From positions 1,867,092 to 1,931,091 of the forward strand of contig NZ_KB913031.1 in the NCBI RefSeq assembly GCF_000384155.1: DNA of 64,000 nucleotides, read 5' to 3'. The translations under genes were made by a program, and so were the position numbers. Under the pieces are notes generated by a model. That model was not told the DNA's origin. It ran no database searches and saw only the letters and a program-made list of their open reading frames with translations. Numbering within the stretch: the first letter of the stretch is position 1; each line of letters opens with the position of its first letter. The stretch comes from Methylophilus sp. 42. Its GTDB lineage: Bacteria; Pseudomonadota; Gammaproteobacteria; Burkholderiales; Methylophilaceae. This document shows, one piece after another, positions 45,037 through 54,391 of the stretch.

Positions 45037-45681
45037 TTAGCCAATAAAAGTATCTTCCAGGAAATCCACTTTACCGGTAGAGATATCATAGACCGCACCG
45101 ACAATGCCGATCTGCTTGCTTTGCAACATATCATCAATAATGTCACTGCAACGAATGATGGTATCGATCTGATATTTTACATTCAAGGCGCAAATCTTCT
45201 CCACAAAATCACTGTTTTTTGAATTGCGCTGGGCCGGATCGGTAATGGTCTTTTCGTGACGGATAGACGGTTTGATCAGGTTGATAATCTCGCCGATATG
45301 ACCATCTTTAAAATCGTCACAAGCCGCTTTCACCGCGCCGCAGGACGAATGGCCCATGACCACAATCAGTTTGCTGCCCAGGTACTTGCTGCCGAACTCA
45401 AGGCTGCCGATCGCTTTGTCTGAAGCAATATTACCTGCCAGGCGCACGCTGAACACGTCGCCCAATGCCTGGTCAAATAACAACTCCACTGGCGCACGTG
45501 AGTCACTGCAGCTCAAAAATGACGAGAACGGATGTTGTTTATCCTTGGTGATTTGGATCAGGCTTTTAAAATCCTTGTCTTGCTCACGATCGGTAATAAA
45601 ACGGTGATTACCTTCAACCAAGATATCCAGTGCCTCACGCGCGGTCATTTTGTCGCGGTCCAGTAATGGGTGCTTGTACAT
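45037..45681 (-). CDS. Beta-class carbonic anhydrase
   Basis: The protein has 214 residues. Zinc ligands and the catalytic dyad are visible: CSDSR (Cys near 58, Asp-Arg pair) and GHSSCG (His and Cys near 108-111). It interconverts CO2 and bicarbonate in the cytoplasm. It lies 57 bp after the SulP transporter gene on the same strand, an arrangement also seen as fused or paired genes in other bacteria for inorganic carbon uptake. Confidence 0.95.
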   Translation of the reverse strand: MYKHPLLDRDKMTAREALDILVEGNHRFITDREQDKDFKSLIQITKDKQHPFSSFLSCSDSRAPVELLFDQALGDVFSVRLAGNIASDKAIGSLEFGSKYLGSKLIVVMGHSSCGAVKAACDDFKDGHIGEIINLIKPSIRHEKTITDPAQRNSKNSDFVEKICALNVKYQIDTIIRCSDIIDDMLQSKQIGIVGAVYDISTGKVDFLEDTFIG

Positions 45682-45738: not shown

Positions 45739-47325
45739 TTAATGCCCCAGCATATGCTTGGGTGGTTTGAAATCAATGGTTTCTACATCAATATTTTTCA
45801 ATTTGGCATGCTGCTGGTAGCCATAGATGAATTCCACGACATCATAGGCGATCGATTTACTATTGGTACAATCGATCACGACTTTGCTATTCGGTGGAAT
45901 GGCTTCCAACACTTCCAGGATACTTGCCTTGTTAAAAAACGAGACTTCTTCCGCCAGCACGAGCTCATACACTTCCTTGCCCTCTTTGGTAGAGCGCGTT
46001 TGTTTGATGTAGTGCGAATTGCGGTAGCTGTGATGCAAGGTGAAGAACACGGCGACCACCAGGCCCAGGCCAATCCCCGTCAGCAAATCGGTAAATACGA
46101 TCGCGACAATGGTCACAATAAACGGGATAAACTGCTCCCAGCCTAGCTGATACATTTGCTTGAACAGTTTAGGTTTCGCCAGTTTGTAACCCACCATAAT
46201 CAGGATGGTAGCCAGGCTGGCCAAAGGAATCAGGTTGAGGAAGCTGGCAATGGTGATGGCACTGAGCAACAACCAGAAGCCATGCAAGATCGCAGACAAC
46301 TTGGTTTGCGCACCAAAGGTCACGTTGGCACTGCTACGCACAATCACTTGTGTAATGGGCAAGCCACCAATCAGGCCTGAGACAATATTGCCTAAGCCCT
46401 GTGCCTTGAGCTCTTTGTTGGTTGGCGTCACGCGTTTATGCACATCCAGTTTGTCAGTGGCTTCAACACAAAGCAGGGTTTCCAAGCTGGCGACAATAGC
46501 CATCACCAAGGCGGTTTTAATCACCAGCGGCTGCGTCACCTGACTAAAATCAGGATGCGTAAAGAAGCTGGCAAACTCACCCAAGCTACTCGCTACTGGC
46601 AAACGTACGATCTGGTCGTCACTTAATGTGAAATTCAACCAGCCGCGCATAAATGCCACATTGAGCAGGATACCAACCAGCACCACCACAATCGGCCCTT
46701 GCAGCAATTGGAAAATCCGGTGTTTCTTGGTAAGCACCGTATCCCACAGGATCAAAATCGCAAAAGACACAGCAGCAATCAATACCGCGCCCGGCGTTAA
46801 CAGGTCCCATGCCTGCAAAATATCGCTGAACGTATCATGGCCGGCAAACGCGTCAAAAGATTCATCGCCCTCATAGTCCGCATCGTAACCAAATGCATGG
46901 GGAATCTGCTTCAGGATAATCAACAATCCTATGCCTGTCAGCATGCCGGTAATCACTGAGGAAGGCACGAAGTAAGCAATAAAGCCTGCTTTAAACTGCC
47001 CGAGCAAAAACTGGAACACACCAGCGAGGACTACCGCGGCCAGAAAAACTTCATAAGAGCCCAAATTGCCAATCGCTGCCATCACAATCACGGCCAGGCC
47101 AGCGGCGGGGCCACTCACACCGAGTTGCGAGCCGCTGGCCAGGCCAACGACAATGCCACCGATAATCCCGGCAATCACGCCCGAAAATAGTGGCGCACCA
47201 GAAGCCAGGGCAATACCCAAACAAAGTGGCAATGCCACAAAAAACACGACAATGGAGGCCGGTAAGTCTCGATTGATGTGCTTGAACAAGTCTAGCGGAC
47301 TAGACCCCTGCACAGAGGTTGACAT
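45739..47325 (-). CDS. SulP-family anion transporter, probable bicarbonate transporter
   Basis: The protein has 528 residues: an N-terminal 12-14-span SulP domain (about 15-420; PASIVVFFVALPLCLGIALASG, GGIVVGLASGSQLGVSGPAAG) and a C-terminal STAS domain (about 440-528; NSKVVIDCTNSKSI). SulP proteins move sulfate, bicarbonate or other anions. Bicarbonate is favoured here because the next gene encodes carbonic anhydrase and a dedicated sulfate ABC system is at 59067-63943. Confidence 0.9.
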   Translation of the reverse strand: MSTSVQGSSPLDLFKHINRDLPASIVVFFVALPLCLGIALASGAPLFSGVIAGIIGGIVVGLASGSQLGVSGPAAGLAVIVMAAIGNLGSYEVFLAAVVLAGVFQFLLGQFKAGFIAYFVPSSVITGMLTGIGLLIILKQIPHAFGYDADYEGDESFDAFAGHDTFSDILQAWDLLTPGAVLIAAVSFAILILWDTVLTKKHRIFQLLQGPIVVVLVGILLNVAFMRGWLNFTLSDDQIVRLPVASSLGEFASFFTHPDFSQVTQPLVIKTALVMAIVASLETLLCVEATDKLDVHKRVTPTNKELKAQGLGNIVSGLIGGLPITQVIVRSSANVTFGAQTKLSAILHGFWLLLSAITIASFLNLIPLASLATILIMVGYKLAKPKLFKQMYQLGWEQFIPFIVTIVAIVFTDLLTGIGLGLVVAVFFTLHHSYRNSHYIKQTRSTKEGKEVYELVLAEEVSFFNKASILEVLEAIPPNSKVVIDCTNSKSIAYDVVEFIYGYQQHAKLKNIDVETIDFKPPKHMLGH

Positions 47326-47394
47326 GGTGTATATCCTTCACAAACAAAATTATTGTTATATTGTTAATTTTTATAATTGACGTTATGACACACA

Positions 47395-47417
47395 AAACCC
47401 CGCAATCATGCGGGGTT
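47395..47417 (-). terminator. Terminator after small secreted protein gene
   Basis: AACCCCGCA / TGCGGGGTT stem with a 4-nt loop and a short TTTT tail on the minus strand, 29 bp after the stop at 47446. Confidence 0.85.
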
Positions 47418-47445
47418 ATTGTTCAGAGCAGTGGTCAGCTTATTG

Positions 47446-47733
47446 TTAATCAGCTGAAGTGTCTGCATTAAAAGGGCGTCTACCGATAAAGTTTAAACGC
47501 ATTTGCTGGTGCTTATCGAAGCCTTTTTCAGGCTTGTCGGTGACGATGCCAGCACCTACCCATTTTTCATCCGGATTTTGCTTGGCAACCGGGGTTTTGG
47601 CATAAGGGCGCTTACCTAAAAAATTGTGCTGATGCATCTGGTTAACCGTGGCGTCCTGATCAATCGACTCTTCCGCCAATGCATTAGCCATTAAACCAAA
47701 TGTCACCAAGAGTGCCAATAATAATTTACTCAT
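47446..47733 (-). CDS. Small secreted protein with two (L/I)G(K/R)R motifs, paralogue B
   Basis: The protein has 95 residues with a clear signal peptide (cut after MANALA, near residue 20), leaving about 75 residues without Cys. It carries HNFLGKRPY near 35-43 and NFIGRRPF near 82-89, with PVAK and KWVGAG between. The same order of motifs is found in the next gene upstream (47818-48075), so the two are paralogues. A strong TAGGAG precedes the ATG. I do not recognise the family. It may be a precursor of exported peptides or a small periplasmic binding protein; neither is shown. Confidence 0.85.
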   Translation of the reverse strand: MSKLLLALLVTFGLMANALAEESIDQDATVNQMHQHNFLGKRPYAKTPVAKQNPDEKWVGAGIVTDKPEKGFDKHQQMRLNFIGRRPFNADTSAD

Positions 47734-47762
47734 TTTTCGCTCCTACATAATTTGTTTGTGTA

Positions 47763-47781
47763 TACACCTGTGGCAGGTGTA
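47763..47781. promoter_or_regulatory. Inverted repeat between the two small secreted protein genes
   Basis: TACACCTG-TGG-CAGGTGTA, 8-bp arms, lies 37 bp after the upstream gene's stop and about 30 bp before the downstream gene's start. There is no T-run. It could be an mRNA processing or attenuation hairpin that sets a ratio between the two products, or an operator. Confidence 0.5.
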
Positions 47782-47817
47782 AGGCCATTATGTTCCAACA
47801 ACCTTACGCAACACTGA

Positions 47818-48075
47818 CTAGTAAGCGCGCTTGCCCAGGGAGTGCATTTTCAAGACTTGCTGCTGGTTTGTCTGGTCCACTCTCAGTGTGGCGCCCACCC
47901 AGGCTTGATCAGCATCTGCCTTGGCTACCACTGGTTGCTGGTATGCACGTTTGCCCAAAAACTGTACATGATGTGTATTATGAACAGTTTCACCGGCATT
48001 GGTTTCAACGGCTTGTGCTGGCAAAGCCAGACTTAAACCCAGAATCATTGCTGCTACGGTTGTGAATGTACGCAT
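47818..48075 (-). CDS. Small secreted protein with two LGKRAY motifs, paralogue A
   Basis: The protein has 85 residues with a signal peptide (cut after ALPAQA, near residue 22). The mature part of about 63 residues has HHVQFLGKRAY near 36-46, VVAK, AWVGA, and ends exactly with LGKRAY. The C-terminal repeat and the central WVGA align with paralogue B without strain. AAAGGAGA lies 6 bp before the ATG, so strong translation is expected. It is the first gene of the pair and is divergent from the LuxR regulator gene at 48219. Function unknown. Confidence 0.85.
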   Translation of the reverse strand: MRTFTTVAAMILGLSLALPAQAVETNAGETVHNTHHVQFLGKRAYQQPVVAKADADQAWVGATLRVDQTNQQQVLKMHSLGKRAY

Positions 48076-48180
48076 GGTGTATCTCCTTTAAATTGTCATT
48101 CAGACAAGTTGTTCTGTTGGTGTGAATCTTGATGCATTCACGATGGATTGCATTTTGCCCGTCTATTATCATCAAAAAAT

Positions 48181-48224
48181 CTACCGATATAGGTAGTTCG
48201 GTATATACTAAACGGCATATGCCG
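48181..48224 (+). promoter_or_regulatory. Inverted repeats and -10-like box over the LuxR gene start
   Basis: CTACCGATATAGGTAG (48181-48196, 5-bp arms) is followed by TATACT (48204-48209) and a perfect palindrome CGGCATATGCCG (48213-48224) that includes the ATG at 48219. TTCGGTATA and TATGCCGAA are also inverted. A -10 so close to the ATG would give a very short leader. An operator for the LuxR protein itself is a plausible reading. Confidence 0.45.
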
Positions 48225-48986
48225 AATGACAGCCCCCCACCGACAGAAAGTGCATTTGCCTTACGCAACTCGCTGAAACAAACACAAGTGCAAATGGCAC
48301 ATGACCGACTGTTTGAGCGACTTGGTCAGAAACTGTTCAACAGTGGCTGGTCAGAAGAACTGATGCAATGGTTGCTGGATGAAGTCTGCATGCAGTTTGG
48401 CGCACCACATGGCCTGATCAGCCAGCAACATGCCGGGGCATTAAAGATATTGGCACAGCGCGGCAAAACCTTCCCTATCGGTGCGCGCGTGCCCATGCTG
48501 GGCGCACTGGGGCAATGGCTCAAAGAGCCGCTACACTTTGAAGTGCATAACCAGTTTGTACCCAGCTTGTGGACGCTGCAAACCAATAATGAGCCGACGC
48601 CATTACATTGTTATCACTTGCCGATCGCCTGCCAGCAACGCGCCGTTGGTTTACTCGGCCTTATCACCGGCAACCCCTTAAGTCCGGCCAGCTTGCAAGT
48701 GCTGCATAGCGTATGCGGCTTGCTGGGGTTTGCTCTGCAAGGACAGGCGCAGTCCAATAGCACCATTGATGACAGTTATCTGCAAAAACTTACGCCGCGT
48801 GAACGTGAGGTATTCGCCCTGTTACCTTCCGGCCCCAGCAACGCCGCGCTGGCACAAAAACTGGGGATTTCCCCAGGCACGGTCAAAATCCATATTGAAC
48901 GGATTTTAAGCAAGCTGGACCTGAATGACCGCACGCAAGCCGCAGTCAAAGCAGTTGAAGCCGGTTTTAAGAGTGACGGTTTATGA
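48219..48986 (+). CDS. LuxR-family transcriptional regulator
   Basis: The protein has 255 residues from the ATG at 48219; an ATG at 48129 would add 30 residues with no homology look. The N-terminal 180 residues resemble a GAF-like sensory fold without a receiver Asp motif. The C-terminal GerE helix-turn-helix (about 190-250) reads LTPREREVFALLPSG, LAQKLGISPGTVKIHIERIL. It overlaps the hybrid kinase gene by 4 bp (ATGA) and is divergent from the small secreted protein pair, which it may control. Confidence 0.88.
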   Translation: MPNDSPPPTESAFALRNSLKQTQVQMAHDRLFERLGQKLFNSGWSEELMQWLLDEVCMQFGAPHGLISQQHAGALKILAQRGKTFPIGARVPMLGALGQWLKEPLHFEVHNQFVPSLWTLQTNNEPTPLHCYHLPIACQQRAVGLLGLITGNPLSPASLQVLHSVCGLLGFALQGQAQSNSTIDDSYLQKLTPREREVFALLPSGPSNAALAQKLGISPGTVKIHIERILSKLDLNDRTQAAVKAVEAGFKSDGL

Positions 48987-50962
48987 TGCAGTCGCTATTT
49001 AATACCATGACCCAGCTCACCAGCCGCCTGAATCACTTGTGGCAGGATTTATCGCTGACCACCAAAGGCATCGTCCTCAATGCTTTGCCGCTCACGGTGT
49101 TACTCGGCTCGCTGGCCCTGATTTTTGAAAGCGAACAGCAGGCTGCCCTGCTGGAAAGACGCGTGCAAAACGCCCTGCAAATCCAGCAGGACATTCAAAC
49201 CCTGCAAACCCTGTTACTCGAAGCCTCAACCGGTGTGCGCGACTTCCTGCTCACAGGTAACCGCCAGTTTCTGGGTGGTTATGAAAGTGCCAGGCAAAGT
49301 ATGCCGCACCTGCTGAGCTCGTTGGAGCACAACCTGGATGATCGCTCGCAACAACACTTATTGCAGGTCATTCACCCGCTGGTGGCAAAAAACCTGGACG
49401 ACCTGGCGATTCTCGCCAGCCATAGCGAAGACGAAGCGGATGAAGCCCTGATTGGTAAATTCAGCTCGCAGGGCAATGCCTTAAATCAATTGCGTGCCCA
49501 CCTTGATCGCATGAGCTTACGCGAGTCCACCATCGTCAACCAGGATAAAAAAGAAGTCATTTACGAACGCAAACGCAATTTACGCATCACGTTGATGGCC
49601 GTAATTGCAGGCGTGGTTGGCTCGCTGATTGGCGTCTGGCTGTTTACCCAAACCATTGTTGCCCGCGTCAAAACCATACGCGACAGCGCCATTCACTTGG
49701 TCAAGGGCGAACCTCTAGCCCTGCCCAGCATTAGCCGGGATGAATTGGGTGAGCTCACCAGCGAACTGGAGCACGCCTCGCAATTGCTGACCCAAAGCGC
49801 CCAGGAAGCGCACCTGGCGCGCGTAGAAGCGGAAGAAGCCAGTGCCGCCAAGAGTAACTTTTTATCACGTACCAGCCATGAGCTGCGCACGCCATTAAAC
49901 GCGATTTTGGGCTTTGCGCAGATCCTAGAAAACGACTTGCCGGAAGGTCGGCAAAAAGACAGCGCCACGCTGATTCATAATGCCGGCCAACACTTGCTGA
50001 AGCTGATTAACGAAGTACTGGATATTTCGCGCATTGAAAGTGGCGATATCAGCATGTCTATGGAAGTCATCGCCCTGAATTTACTACTAGAAGAAGCCTA
50101 TCACTACCTCAAACCGCTGGAAAAAGTACGCGATATCACTATAGAAACGCATTTTGAGCCTGATTTGAAAGTGCGCGCTGACCGTCAGCGCTTGCTGCAG
50201 GTGATTTTAAACCTGCTGGCCAATGCCTTGAAATACGGCCCGGAAAATACCAGTGTCAGCTTCAGCGCTTATCGGCAGCAAGGCCAAATCCGGGTGGATG
50301 TGCAGGATCAGGGCCAGGGGATTCCCGCCGCCCTGCGTTCGCGGCTATTCACACCATTTGACCGGCTGGGCGCAGAACGTACAGTGACGGAAGGGACTGG
50401 TTTGGGCCTAGTACTCAGCAAACAGCTGATGGATGCCATGGGCGGCCAGATTGGTGTTGCCGAAGCGCAAAGCCTGTTCTGGATCAGCCTGCCGGAAACC
50501 GGGCAGGCAATTCACAATCCCCTGCCGCAAGCTGAAGCAAGCACAGCACTGAACGCGCGCCCTGCTGCAACAACCAGTCAGGCCAAGCGCCATATCCTGT
50601 ATGTGGAAGATAACCACAGTAATCAGGCCTTGATAGAAGCCATTATGAGCAAGCATCGCCACCTCAAGCTGCACCTGGCGGCCAGCTTGCAGGAAAGCAT
50701 GGTCTGGCTACGCGATATGCAGCCAGACTTGCTATTGCTGGACCTGAACTTGCCTGATGGCTCAGGGGAGTCACTGATTCAGCATATCCAGTCCAGCCGT
50801 CAGGACTTGCAAGCCACTCCCATCGTCGTGTTAAGTGCAGACGCCCTGCCGGACACCATACAGCGGCTTAACGCGCTGGGCATCACACATTACTTTACCA
50901 AGCCGTTGAATGTCGCGGCCTTTAACCAGTTACTGCTAAAACTCCTGCCCGAGACTCCATGA
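48983..50962 (+). CDS. Hybrid sensor histidine kinase with CHASE3-like sensor
   Basis: The protein has 659 residues. Two membrane spans (about 30-50 and 203-222) enclose a helical CHASE3-like periplasmic domain; HAMP follows, then HisKA with H299 (SHELRTPLNAILGF), HATPase (NLLANALKYG, DQGQGIP, GTGLGLVLS) and a C-terminal receiver (about 535-655) with phospho-Asp in LLLLDLNLPDG. It overlaps both neighbours by 4 bp, so LuxR, kinase and the stand-alone receiver are translationally coupled. The signal is unknown. Confidence 0.93.
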   Translation: MMQSLFNTMTQLTSRLNHLWQDLSLTTKGIVLNALPLTVLLGSLALIFESEQQAALLERRVQNALQIQQDIQTLQTLLLEASTGVRDFLLTGNRQFLGGYESARQSMPHLLSSLEHNLDDRSQQHLLQVIHPLVAKNLDDLAILASHSEDEADEALIGKFSSQGNALNQLRAHLDRMSLRESTIVNQDKKEVIYERKRNLRITLMAVIAGVVGSLIGVWLFTQTIVARVKTIRDSAIHLVKGEPLALPSISRDELGELTSELEHASQLLTQSAQEAHLARVEAEEASAAKSNFLSRTSHELRTPLNAILGFAQILENDLPEGRQKDSATLIHNAGQHLLKLINEVLDISRIESGDISMSMEVIALNLLLEEAYHYLKPLEKVRDITIETHFEPDLKVRADRQRLLQVILNLLANALKYGPENTSVSFSAYRQQGQIRVDVQDQGQGIPAALRSRLFTPFDRLGAERTVTEGTGLGLVLSKQLMDAMGGQIGVAEAQSLFWISLPETGQAIHNPLPQAEASTALNARPAATTSQAKRHILYVEDNHSNQALIEAIMSKHRHLKLHLAASLQESMVWLRDMQPDLLLLDLNLPDGSGESLIQHIQSSRQDLQATPIVVLSADALPDTIQRLNALGITHYFTKPLNVAAFNQLLLKLLPETP

Positions 50963-51417: not shown

Positions 51418-51472
51418 GCGTGGATTAATCCGCGCCATGTATCGTGAATACTCAACACACAAGGAGAACACG

Positions 51473-51811
51473 ATGCGTAAAGCCTCAAACAAATCCCTTA
51501 GCCTGCTCATGATTGCCTTGTTTTTAGGCGCGATGGCCTGCCAGCCTGCACTGGCAGACGATGACGATGATGATGTACAAAAGATGTCTGAAAAAGCCAA
51601 AGCGTTTGGCCTGATTTCACATGAGGAGGCGCAAAGCAAAGCGCTGGCAGCCAAACCCGGCGTGGTGAAAGAAGTAGAGCTGGAACGCAGGAAATTTCGC
51701 GCTGGCTGGGACTACGAAGTTGAAATCGTCGATAGCAATGGTGCCGAATGGGAAGTCACTATTGATGCCAAAACCGGCAAGGTCAACAGTATCAACCGCG
51801 ACTGGTTTTAA
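51473..51811 (+). CDS. Secreted PepSY-domain protein
   Basis: The protein has 112 residues from the ATG at 51473 with AAGGAG 6-7 bp upstream. The signal peptide ends at ALA near residue 28 and is followed by six Asp residues. The PepSY-like domain (about 45-112) has the pattern KEVELERRK, YEVEIVDSNGAEWEVTIDA and GKVNSI. It is homologous to the protein encoded at 53864-54190. The stop is 3 bp from the convergent kinase gene. Such small PepSY proteins often partner sensor kinases; the target is unknown. Confidence 0.88.
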   Translation: MRKASNKSLSLLMIALFLGAMACQPALADDDDDDVQKMSEKAKAFGLISHEEAQSKALAAKPGVVKEVELERRKFRAGWDYEVEIVDSNGAEWEVTIDAKTGKVNSINRDWF

Positions 51812-51814
51812 GCC

Positions 51815-53188
51815 TTAAACGCTGGAGCCTGCCAAGGTAGGTGCCAGCGTCATCTTGATGCGCAAACCACCCAATCGCTCAGAATGCGTGAGCGAAATCT
51901 GGCCGTGGTAATGGTGCACGATATCCTGCACGATTGCCAAGCCCAAGCCACTGCCTGGTTTGGATTCATCCATACGCATGCCACGCTGTAACAAAGTGTC
52001 CAAGGTCGGCGCACTGCTGCCGGGACCGTCATCTTCAACCACAATCTCAATAGTATCTTGTATGCTGTTTTGTACAGAAATATGCAGTTGTACCTGGCCG
52101 TGACACCATTTAAAAGCGTTATCAAGCACATTACCCAATAATTCCAGCATATCTTCACGGTCAACCATTAAACGTGCCTGACCATCATGTTGCCAGGCGA
52201 ATGCCACGGTTTTATCACTGTAAATCTTCTGCAAAGTCGTCACCAGTTTGGGTAACTCCAGTTCTAGGTCCGTCTGCTGGCTGGTGTAGGCATCGCCCAT
52301 CAGCCGCGCGCGTTTTAACTCACGCTCCACATCGTGGTGTATGTCCTCGCTACAGTGCTGTATCATCTGCCGCAACTGCATATCCCCTGCCTCTGATCCA
52401 TTACCGGCCAGCAATTGCAGCTGCGCCAGGCGCGTTTTGAGCCCATGTGCCAGGTTACCTATCGCCAGGCGCGAGCGCCGAGTTTTCTGGCTGGTTGTTT
52501 TCAGGATACGGTTAAACTCGTTGACCAGCGGCATCACCTCCGCCGGGCCACTGGCATTAATCTGTTGCAACTCGCCACTGGCGACTTTTGCCAAGCTCTC
52601 CTTAATCTGTTGCAAAGGCTGCAGCGTATTGACGACAATCCAGCGCTGTAACGCCAACAATGCCAGTAAACCCAGCAGGGAAAACACCCCATACAGCCAA
52701 TGAAACAGGCGCAGACTTTGCTGTAAGTCAACCAGACTCTCTGCAATATAAATAGTGATGGTGTGTTGCTGCTTACGGTAAGCATGCCCTAATAGCAGCA
52801 AGGGTTGCGACTCCGGGCCAGTGACATGGGTGACGCGTTCATCACCAACCTTGAGCGCGCTCACCGGCATATCGACATCCCACCAGGAGCGAGACTGTAT
52901 CTTGTGGATGGCCTCCTTGCGCTCATGATCTAGCAGCACAATAAAATAGCGGCCTGAAAACGGTCGCTGATAACTGCTTGTGATGAGTCGTGGCTCCAGC
53001 GCCAATTCGCCGCGCGCATTCACTGACACGCCTGCCAGTAGGCCTTCAGCTTCCTGTTGCATACGTGCCGTCATTTGTGACTGGACTAAATGGTCTATGG
53101 TAAAGGTGACCACCGCCCATTGCAGCGTCAGCAGGCCAACCAGGCTCAGCGTCAAGCCCAGCGACAACTGTCTGCGCAGTGATTTCAT
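51815..53188 (-). CDS. Sensor histidine kinase (PhoQ/QseC-like)
   Basis: The protein has 457 residues. Two spans (about 8-28 and 165-185; WLYGVFSLLGLLALLAL) flank a periplasmic sensor; a HAMP region follows. The His box is NLAHGLKTRLAQLQ, a variant of the usual SHELRTP as seen in PhoQ-like kinases. HATPase motifs NVLDNAFKW, VEDDGPG and GSGLGLAIV are intact. It overlaps its regulator gene by 4 bp (ATGA) and is convergent with the PepSY gene. Confidence 0.93.
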   Translation of the reverse strand: MKSLRRQLSLGLTLSLVGLLTLQWAVVTFTIDHLVQSQMTARMQQEAEGLLAGVSVNARGELALEPRLITSSYQRPFSGRYFIVLLDHERKEAIHKIQSRSWWDVDMPVSALKVGDERVTHVTGPESQPLLLLGHAYRKQQHTITIYIAESLVDLQQSLRLFHWLYGVFSLLGLLALLALQRWIVVNTLQPLQQIKESLAKVASGELQQINASGPAEVMPLVNEFNRILKTTSQKTRRSRLAIGNLAHGLKTRLAQLQLLAGNGSEAGDMQLRQMIQHCSEDIHHDVERELKRARLMGDAYTSQQTDLELELPKLVTTLQKIYSDKTVAFAWQHDGQARLMVDREDMLELLGNVLDNAFKWCHGQVQLHISVQNSIQDTIEIVVEDDGPGSSAPTLDTLLQRGMRMDESKPGSGLGLAIVQDIVHHYHGQISLTHSERLGGLRIKMTLAPTLAGSSV

Positions 53189-53862
53189 GTCTCCGCCCCG
53201 GACATCAGACTGGTAAACGCATAGCCCTGGCCGCGCTTGGTCTGGATACGGTCGGCGCCGACTTTCTGCCGCAGGCGGTTGATATAGACCTCAATCACAT
53301 TGCTGTCTTTGTCTGCATCATAGGCGTAAACATGCTCGGTCAACTCGGTTTTAGAAAAAATCCGTCCGGGATGTAACATCAGGTAGCGCAGTAACCTGAA
53401 CTCGGTACCCGTCAATGCATGTGCAGTTTCGCCCTGCCAGACCGTCTGTGTCTGCTCGTCCAGACTTAAATCTGCCACCACCAGTGCGCTATTCACCACG
53501 CCCACGCTGCGCTTATGCACCGCACCGATACGCGCCAGCAACTCCTCCATGTGAAAAGGTTTGGTCACATAATCATCGGCTCCGAGGTTAAATGCCTCGA
53601 CTTTCTCTTGCCAGCTGCTGCGCGCGGTTAATACAATCACCGGCATACTGTCTGCTTGTGCACGCCAAATGGCCAGCACCTCCAGGCCAGGCTTGCCAGG
53701 CAAGCCTAAATCCAGGATCGCCAGGTCATATGGCTCAAGCACCCCTTGTATACTGGCTTCGCCGCCTTCTTGCAGCCAGTCACAGGCATAACCCGCAGCC
53801 TTGAGTGCTTGCTGCGTCTGTGCGCCAAGCACAGCATCGTCTTCTACCAGCAGCAACCGCAT
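53185..53862 (-). CDS. OmpR/PhoP-type response regulator
   Basis: The protein has 225 residues. The receiver (about 1-115) has phospho-Asp D51 (LAILDLGLPG) and the DDYVTKPF Lys; the winged-helix DNA-binding domain (about 130-220) has TGTEFRLLRYLMLHPGR and VIEVYINRLRQKVG. It is encoded between the PepSY protein (1 bp before) and the kinase (4-bp overlap): one operon. Confidence 0.95.
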   Translation of the reverse strand: MRLLLVEDDAVLGAQTQQALKAAGYACDWLQEGGEASIQGVLEPYDLAILDLGLPGKPGLEVLAIWRAQADSMPVIVLTARSSWQEKVEAFNLGADDYVTKPFHMEELLARIGAVHKRSVGVVNSALVVADLSLDEQTQTVWQGETAHALTGTEFRLLRYLMLHPGRIFSKTELTEHVYAYDADKDSNVIEVYINRLRQKVGADRIQTKRGQGYAFTSLMSGAET

Positions 53863-53863
53863 A

Positions 53864-54190
53864 TTAGTCGTCTTGTTCCATTTTCAGTAACTGCCCACTC
53901 TTGGCATCCAGTTTCAACTCCCACACCTGGCTTCCAGCATCCAGTATCTCAACCTCATAAATATAACGCCCGTGCTTTTTCTCCAGTTCGACCTCCAGAA
54001 TTTCGCCAGGTTTATAACTCTTGGCTTTTTGGGAGATTTTTTCCAGGCTCAAAATGTCGCCTTTCGCCGATAAACGCCCGGCGTTGGCGGGGCTTTCACC
54101 CGAATCTGCGCGCGGCAGGTAAACCAGCGCAAGCAATACAAGCACTAGCGCGAAAAGCGCCATCCATATACGGCGTTGCATCCAAAACAT
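53864..54190 (-). CDS. Membrane-anchored PepSY-like protein
   Basis: The protein has 108 residues from the ATG at 54190, which has AGGAG 9 bp upstream; the longer start at 54244 lacks one. An uncleaved N-terminal anchor (IWMALFALVLVLLALVYLP) is followed by a PepSY-like domain (about 55-108; EILEVELEKKHGRYIYEVEIL, GQLLKM). It is a paralogue of the PepSY protein at 51473-51811. As first gene of the PepSY-regulator-kinase operon it probably modulates that kinase from the periplasm. Confidence 0.87.
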   Translation of the reverse strand: MFWMQRRIWMALFALVLVLLALVYLPRADSGESPANAGRLSAKGDILSLEKISQKAKSYKPGEILEVELEKKHGRYIYEVEILDAGSQVWELKLDAKSGQLLKMEQDD

Positions 54191-54391
54191 AGGCTCAACA
54201 CTCCTGAAAACCACCGAAATCGACCAAAGTTTAACAGTATTCATCTTAAACCAAGCTGAATTCCAGCCATCTGGCAGTCATGCAAATGCATGACCGCATG
54301 TAAAGTACAGATTAATTGATGAGAGACACTTTAAAAAACGCATAACCGCTACAATATGAGATTGAGCCTTTAACACCGAATACGCACGCCC

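Follow-up and report, generated by a model that had tools for sequence, protein, structure and literature searches.

Tiny two-motif exported proteins as the probable output of a LuxR/CHASE3 signaling module in Methylophilaceae

A regulatory operon that faces two genes for tiny exported proteins raises the question of whether those proteins are what the operon controls and, if so, what they might do. Such an arrangement lies in the window analyzed here, a stretch of 64,000 nucleotides (G000:C1:1867092-1931091) from a 2.97 Mb genome of the Methylophilaceae, which are important freshwater methanol users. We give the name FAM to the protein family of the 85-aa and 95-aa pair, whose genes and nearest signals are as follows:

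47818..48075, (-) strand: FAM alpha-type gene, first of the pair, 85 aa; exported, its C-terminal end being the second motif, LGKRAY
47446..47733, (-) strand: FAM beta-type gene, second of the pair, 95 aa; exported, with a short acidic-ended tail after the second motif
48083..48087, (-) strand: AGGAG ribosome site of the 85-aa gene
47740..47744, (-) strand: AGGAG ribosome site of the 95-aa gene
47396..47417, (-) strand: intrinsic-terminator-like hairpin (z -3.5), 3' of the two-gene unit and 5' of a SulP gene

The original prediction described a pair of paralogous genes for small secreted proteins without cysteine, and this description holds in each particular. Both open reading frames occupy these positions, the two genes are paralogues, neither protein contains Cys, and both carry what was judged by eye to be a Sec-type signal peptide. 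The elements FLGKRxY, VAK, WVGA and second motif follow one another in this order in both chains, and LGKRAY is the exact end of the 85-aa protein. Stated more generally, each protein has two (L/I)(G/S)(K/Q/R)R(P/A)(Y/F) motifs flanking a W-x-G-A core. With signal-peptide cut sites placed by eye, the mature chains are hydrophilic and about 63-75 residues long, with a GRAVY of -0.65 and a pI of 9.3 for the 85-aa precursor and values of -1.13 and 7.1 for the 95-aa precursor.

The accompanying guess that the products are abundant agrees with the AGGAG sites and with codon adaptation. Measured against the S10/spc region as reference, the 85-aa gene scores 0.71, exceeding all 46 scored window genes, and the 95-aa gene scores 0.61, exceeding 83% of them. 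For both genes, comparison with five relatives each gave a dN/dS of about 0.05-0.15 (one P2 comparison was discarded because dS was saturated), which denotes purifying selection and, together with conservation, rules out spurious open reading frames. An antisense frame at 47790-48065 (+) was set aside as the mirror of the 85-aa gene. The region holds 2 terminator-like sites vs 1.1 expected by shuffling, which is no great excess. The spacer between the two genes, 47734-47817 (-), has the potential to form two hairpins (z -1.5, with 17 of 200 shuffles equally good) that could perhaps set the ratio of the two products.

Forty-one main loci, picked for containing FAM matches, show how constant this layout is. 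Two motifs were found by pattern in 66 of 78 FAM members, one in 11 and none in 1, with duplicate small loci excluded from motif and array counts; residue-shuffled copies of the members, which served as the control, carried two motifs in 0.013% of cases. The distance between the motifs is 39-52 residues in the 66 two-motif members. In alignment A1 (48 known FAM members, hand-picked as were the 50 of alignment A2), the Arg of the first motif is invariant, and G60 and the Arg of the second motif are each present in at least 90% of rows.

It had also been predicted that no described family shares this layout, and this is borne out in the libraries searched. No Pfam-A cut-off was reached by the 10 FAM members scanned and no NCBIfam cut-off by the 8 scanned, the sub-cut-off matches being DUF5930 (16.1 vs 27 bits), WGxxGxxG_fam (14.6 vs 35) and, for the single member L085:10018-10287, penta_MxKDx (TIGR02953; 19.4 bits, cut-off 41). 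A PDB sequence search returned nothing better than an E value of about 0.6 (0.61). PHROGs, which has no curated cut-off, yielded two weak families among 48 FAM members and no consistent strong match: phrog_24782, for which no function is given, matched 3 of 48 with a best E of 3.5e-4, and the second matched 1 of 48 at 0.0098. A plasmid search with the 95-aa protein as query gave no match, PADLOC gave none for the two small proteins, and Rfam produced two sub-threshold matches in window positions 47300-48400, none above its gathering score. Neither the family nor its motif is described in the literature searched (including PMC5723320, PMC3728764, PMC6650549 and PMC4109929), a body of text in which supplementary tables and most subscription papers were out of reach.

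Within Methylophilaceae, the family is conserved among relatives, as protein and hidden Markov model searches revealed. In the protein searches at E<=0.1, 41 of 187 family genomes were matched with the 85-aa query and 39 of 187 with the 95-aa query, and an iterated model run over the open reading frames of the fetched loci collected 95 matches comprising 90 different sequences. A 48-row FAM profile at E<=0.01 placed the family in 43 of 187 genomes and 7 of 24 genera. Of 399 genomes sampled from the order four were matched, all inside Methylophilaceae, and in a class sample of 369 the matches were that of the genome analyzed here and a chance-like one in G584, although many genomes of both samples had only part of their first-look candidates scored. 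The G584 match (E 0.0045) was rejected because it contains LLGRSRAL without the family layout.

The operon from which the pair diverges, as originally predicted, consists of three genes:

48219..48986, (+) strand: LuxR-type HTH regulator, 255 aa, with a GAF-like domain; proposed activator
48983..50962, (+) strand: CHASE3 - HisKA - HATPase - receiver hybrid sensor kinase, 659 aa
50959..51417, (+) strand: stand-alone receiver protein, 152 aa

The LuxR protein shares its C-terminal HTH with LuxR/NarL-type regulators, and its proposed operator, described below, likewise contains a TACC-type inverted repeat, but the protein has a GAF-like domain in place of a receiver domain, and its scores for the nearest NCBIfam models fall far under the cut-offs (EpsA, TIGR03020, 50.9 of 170 bits over the C-terminal part only; NarL, 49.8 of 250). 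The GAF-like domain itself is narrowly under its Pfam cut-off (22.1 vs 22.4 bits). In relatives from other genera, the HTH is 67-82% identical to that of the window's LuxR, compared with 32-38% for the GAF part. PADLOC gave only weak HTH-region matches for this protein.

LuxR (E<=1e-30) occurs in 42 of 187 family genomes, and all 42 are among the 43 FAM-positive ones, counts that are inflated by the relatedness of the genomes; the 43rd, G076, which gave no LuxR match, is 80% complete. A divergent FAM gene lies at most 1 kb from LuxR in 36 of the 42. In G108 and G110, the place beside LuxR is taken by a 68-aa exported one-motif protein ending in FLGSRPY, accompanied by a similar operator sequence, and the weak FAM profile matches are elsewhere in the genome. 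A contig ends inside the FAM gene beside LuxR in G079, FAM and LuxR are on separate contigs in G041 and G170, and in G075 FAM is present elsewhere in the genome and not beside LuxR. From another family, G191 has a LuxR-kinase pair without FAM (36% and 39% identity), and hence this type of regulator is wider than FAM.

A further connection is provided by a sequence between the divergent genes, whose window coordinates were, for the core, converted by hand:

48189..48219, (-) strand: operator core TATGCCGTTTAGTATATACCGAACTACCTAT, overlapping the LuxR start codon with its first bases
48181..48196, (-) strand: operator palindrome CTACCTATATCGGTAG; centre about -43.5 from the inferred transcription start (hand calculation)
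48152..48157, (-) strand: inferred -10 box CAAAAT, 51 bp from the GTATATACC element

Upstream regions share the consensus TATGCC-N5-GTATATACC-N4-TACCTAT or close variants of it. The spacing is nearly fixed, with a -10-like box at 51 bp from the operator in 35 of 39 distinct sites (36 of 41 in the raw listing, where L099 stood twice and a reverse-strand match in L071 was the same site backwards). The others are L072(-) and L100, which have a differing box in the same place, L094 at 50 bp, and L101 with no box. A sigma-70 scan found no promoter on the (-) strand at the inferred -10 site, and we infer from the location of the palindrome centre that it is the position of a class II activator. The palindrome was also flagged as terminator-like, having a stem and a T run.

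The distribution of the operator follows that of FAM closely. The window's own genome has one copy at up to 3 mismatches, and a scan of 22 genomes of the genus found 30 copies in 18 of them. A FAM gene follows 28 of these copies after 97-186 bp, another copy lies where a contig stops within a FAM gene, and the remaining one precedes a SulP transporter. When the reversed pattern was run as a control, it gave 0 sites in the same 22 genomes. G070, G071 and G077 have no operator copy, no FAM and no LuxR match; G066 likewise has no copy in the scan, yet FAM and LuxR are present, and its operator is more diverged (L078). A degenerate pattern matched 33 stretches in an 84,980-species collection that may omit records near the window's genome and overlaps in part with the 22 genus genomes. 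All 33 are labelled Methylophilus, Methylotenera, Methylophilaceae or Betaproteobacteria, and 30 have a FAM open reading frame; L175 breaks off within a FAM gene, and L176 and L182 lead into SulP. The operator also precedes dispersed arrays (L064, L066, L067, L071, L080 and L089), which are either distant from LuxR or located on a different contig. Its left half, CGGCAT, is at LuxR start codons and is lost at most dispersed sites. Because the operator overlaps the start region of LuxR, we propose that the regulator also controls itself. By eye, the operator contains or adjoins both a TATACT box and the start codon of LuxR (window 48203-48221), and judging from these positions the transcript of LuxR may have almost no leader and may be self-controlled.

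Conserved adjacency, a common phyletic pattern and a common operator, which are the sequence hallmarks of a two-component output module, were thus all found, and the neighborhood analysis supports the original suggestion that pair and operon form one system, the operator linking dispersed copies to it as well. Because of the co-occurrence with LuxR, the divergent adjacency, the operator counts and spacing and the empty reversed-pattern control, FAM appears to be the main conserved output of a dedicated signaling module, as far as can be judged from sequence. We put at roughly 60% the probability that the pair is the dedicated output of the LuxR/CHASE3/receiver operon in the form of abundant proteins that work whole, as two-headed binding proteins of the periplasm or cell surface. 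In this scheme, an extracytoplasmic cue would be sensed by the CHASE3 kinase and passed on through the receiver domains by phosphate transfer; LuxR, acting as a class II activator at a weak promoter, would bind the adjacent operator and turn on large amounts of both small exported proteins. LuxR could instead be a repressor. For the repeated Arg-Pro/Ala-aromatic motif, the best reading is a binding element that each chain uses twice and that, together with the W-G-A element, would make each uncut chain a ligand with two heads; abundant two-motif envelope effectors are our best guess at what these proteins are. Some observations speak against a dedicated output: the distal copies in L068, L070, L072, L074 and L076 and the orphans in L062 and L075 are all outside operator control, and two operators precede SulP without FAM.

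A different use of the motif had been offered in the original prediction, which considered that its dibasic residues might mark sites of processing into short peptides. FAM proteins could then be precursors of signaling peptides cut at (K/R)R and read by the CHASE3 kinase in a quorum-type loop. Like secreted peptide pheromone precursors, they have a signal peptide, a short repeated motif and a sensor kinase nearby; they are small and exported, their sensor operon is dedicated, and in most arrays the motif is the exact end of the first genes. However, in 105 of 143 motifs the residue after the Arg is Pro, before which trypsin- and kexin-like proteases cut inefficiently, and 13 of 143 motifs have QR and no dibasic pair at all, so that cutting at these sites is unlikely. 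Purifying selection extends over the whole chain, in which respect FAM also differs from such precursors, and the annotated genes, which are part of the conserved neighbors, include no protease or peptide exporter. We therefore find the peptide-precursor reading very improbable. A loop that uses the whole proteins, with the pair as a secreted two-headed ligand read by the CHASE3 kinase of its own operon for self- or neighbor-sensing within Methylophilaceae, strikes us as equally far from probable; if true, intact small proteins would take the place of peptides or acyl-homoserine lactones in such sensing. Somewhat less remote, though still unlikely, is that the pair are envelope-stress helpers akin to Spy or CpxP, chaperone-like or sensor-feedback proteins that are induced by the kinase and feed back on its system. 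Codon use that points to abundant exported products, a kinase with a CHASE3 sensor domain and a paralogue pair within one unit all suit such helpers, and Spy and CpxP are likewise small, exported and controlled by a two-component system. Against this, FAM has no Pfam or NCBIfam match above cut-off and has other motifs, its short mature chains lack the LTxxQ motifs (by eye), and its genes are paired under a dedicated LuxR-side operator.

The neighboring genes suggest one more function:

45739..47325, (-) strand: SulP-family anion transporter; a frequent neighbor, not an obligatory part
45037..45681, (-) strand: carbonic anhydrase-like protein adjoining SulP; under the NCBIfam cut-off, 191.8 vs 221 bits

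These two genes flank the FAM pair in most LuxR loci, and the operator is directly before SulP, with no FAM gene between, at L176:1554 (-) and L182:3878 (+), as would suit accessory proteins of a transporter and carbonic anhydrase pair for bicarbonate or sulfate uptake. On the other hand, the terminator-like hairpin stands between the pair and SulP, FAM and LuxR remain linked without an adjacent SulP in L087, L088, L091 and L099, and the operator-controlled dispersed arrays in L064, L066, L067, L071 and L080 have other neighbors, and we consider an accessory role quite improbable. The dedicated-output reading would make FAM, to the extent that sequence can tell, a new protein family at the output end of a regulatory chain of a known kind. 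A three-protein operon with FAM, a family of tiny exported proteins that is undescribed, as its main conserved output suggests that these proteins matter to the cell. To our knowledge, what CHASE3 domains sense is mostly an open question, and FAM is a candidate readout for it, with regulator, operator and output inside 4 kb as a ready test bed.

FAM genes also form arrays with a recurrent order. By hand count, at least one motif-ended gene precedes a short-tailed last gene in 24 of 27 multi-gene arrays, the last-gene tails being mostly 6-7 residues and mostly D- or E-terminated. The exceptions are L064, whose last copy is truncated, L099, with two-residue tails on both copies, and L100, whose first copy is truncated. 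An ancient alpha/beta split was considered and rejected, given that a midpoint-rooted tree of 76 rows (excluding those under 80 aa or without the first motif, and having few columns and many unresolved forks) separates most Methylophilus rows before it separates alpha from beta. Because of this tree, we regard the order as a pattern and not as evidence of one old duplication. Truncated or one-motif copies (L042:1543-1770, L064:9907-10107, L083:9211-9471, L092:9999-10331 and L100:10152-10352) suggest that arrays both acquire new copies and lose old ones.

The third, orphan FAM member is at L062:9712-10020 (G000:C1:35712-35972), with a counterpart at L075:9903-10211. Both adjoin a dimethylamine-monooxygenase-like operon that encodes a haem N-demethylase, a DmmA-like protein and ETF (Pfam scan in L062 only), a pathway that would yield formaldehyde. 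In the window, the regulator operon is followed at 51464-53862 by a PepSY protein and then a PmrA/QseB-like two-component pair, with a second PepSY-like open reading frame, recognized by eye, at 53864-54244. The diverged extra copies (L068:13464-13814, L070:3893-4150, L072:15721-16050, L074:5243-5524 and L076:13766-14026) stand where the regulator operon ends, flanked by the receiver gene on one side and the PepSY/PmrA-like two-component cluster on the other, and several of them have another upstream sequence in common.
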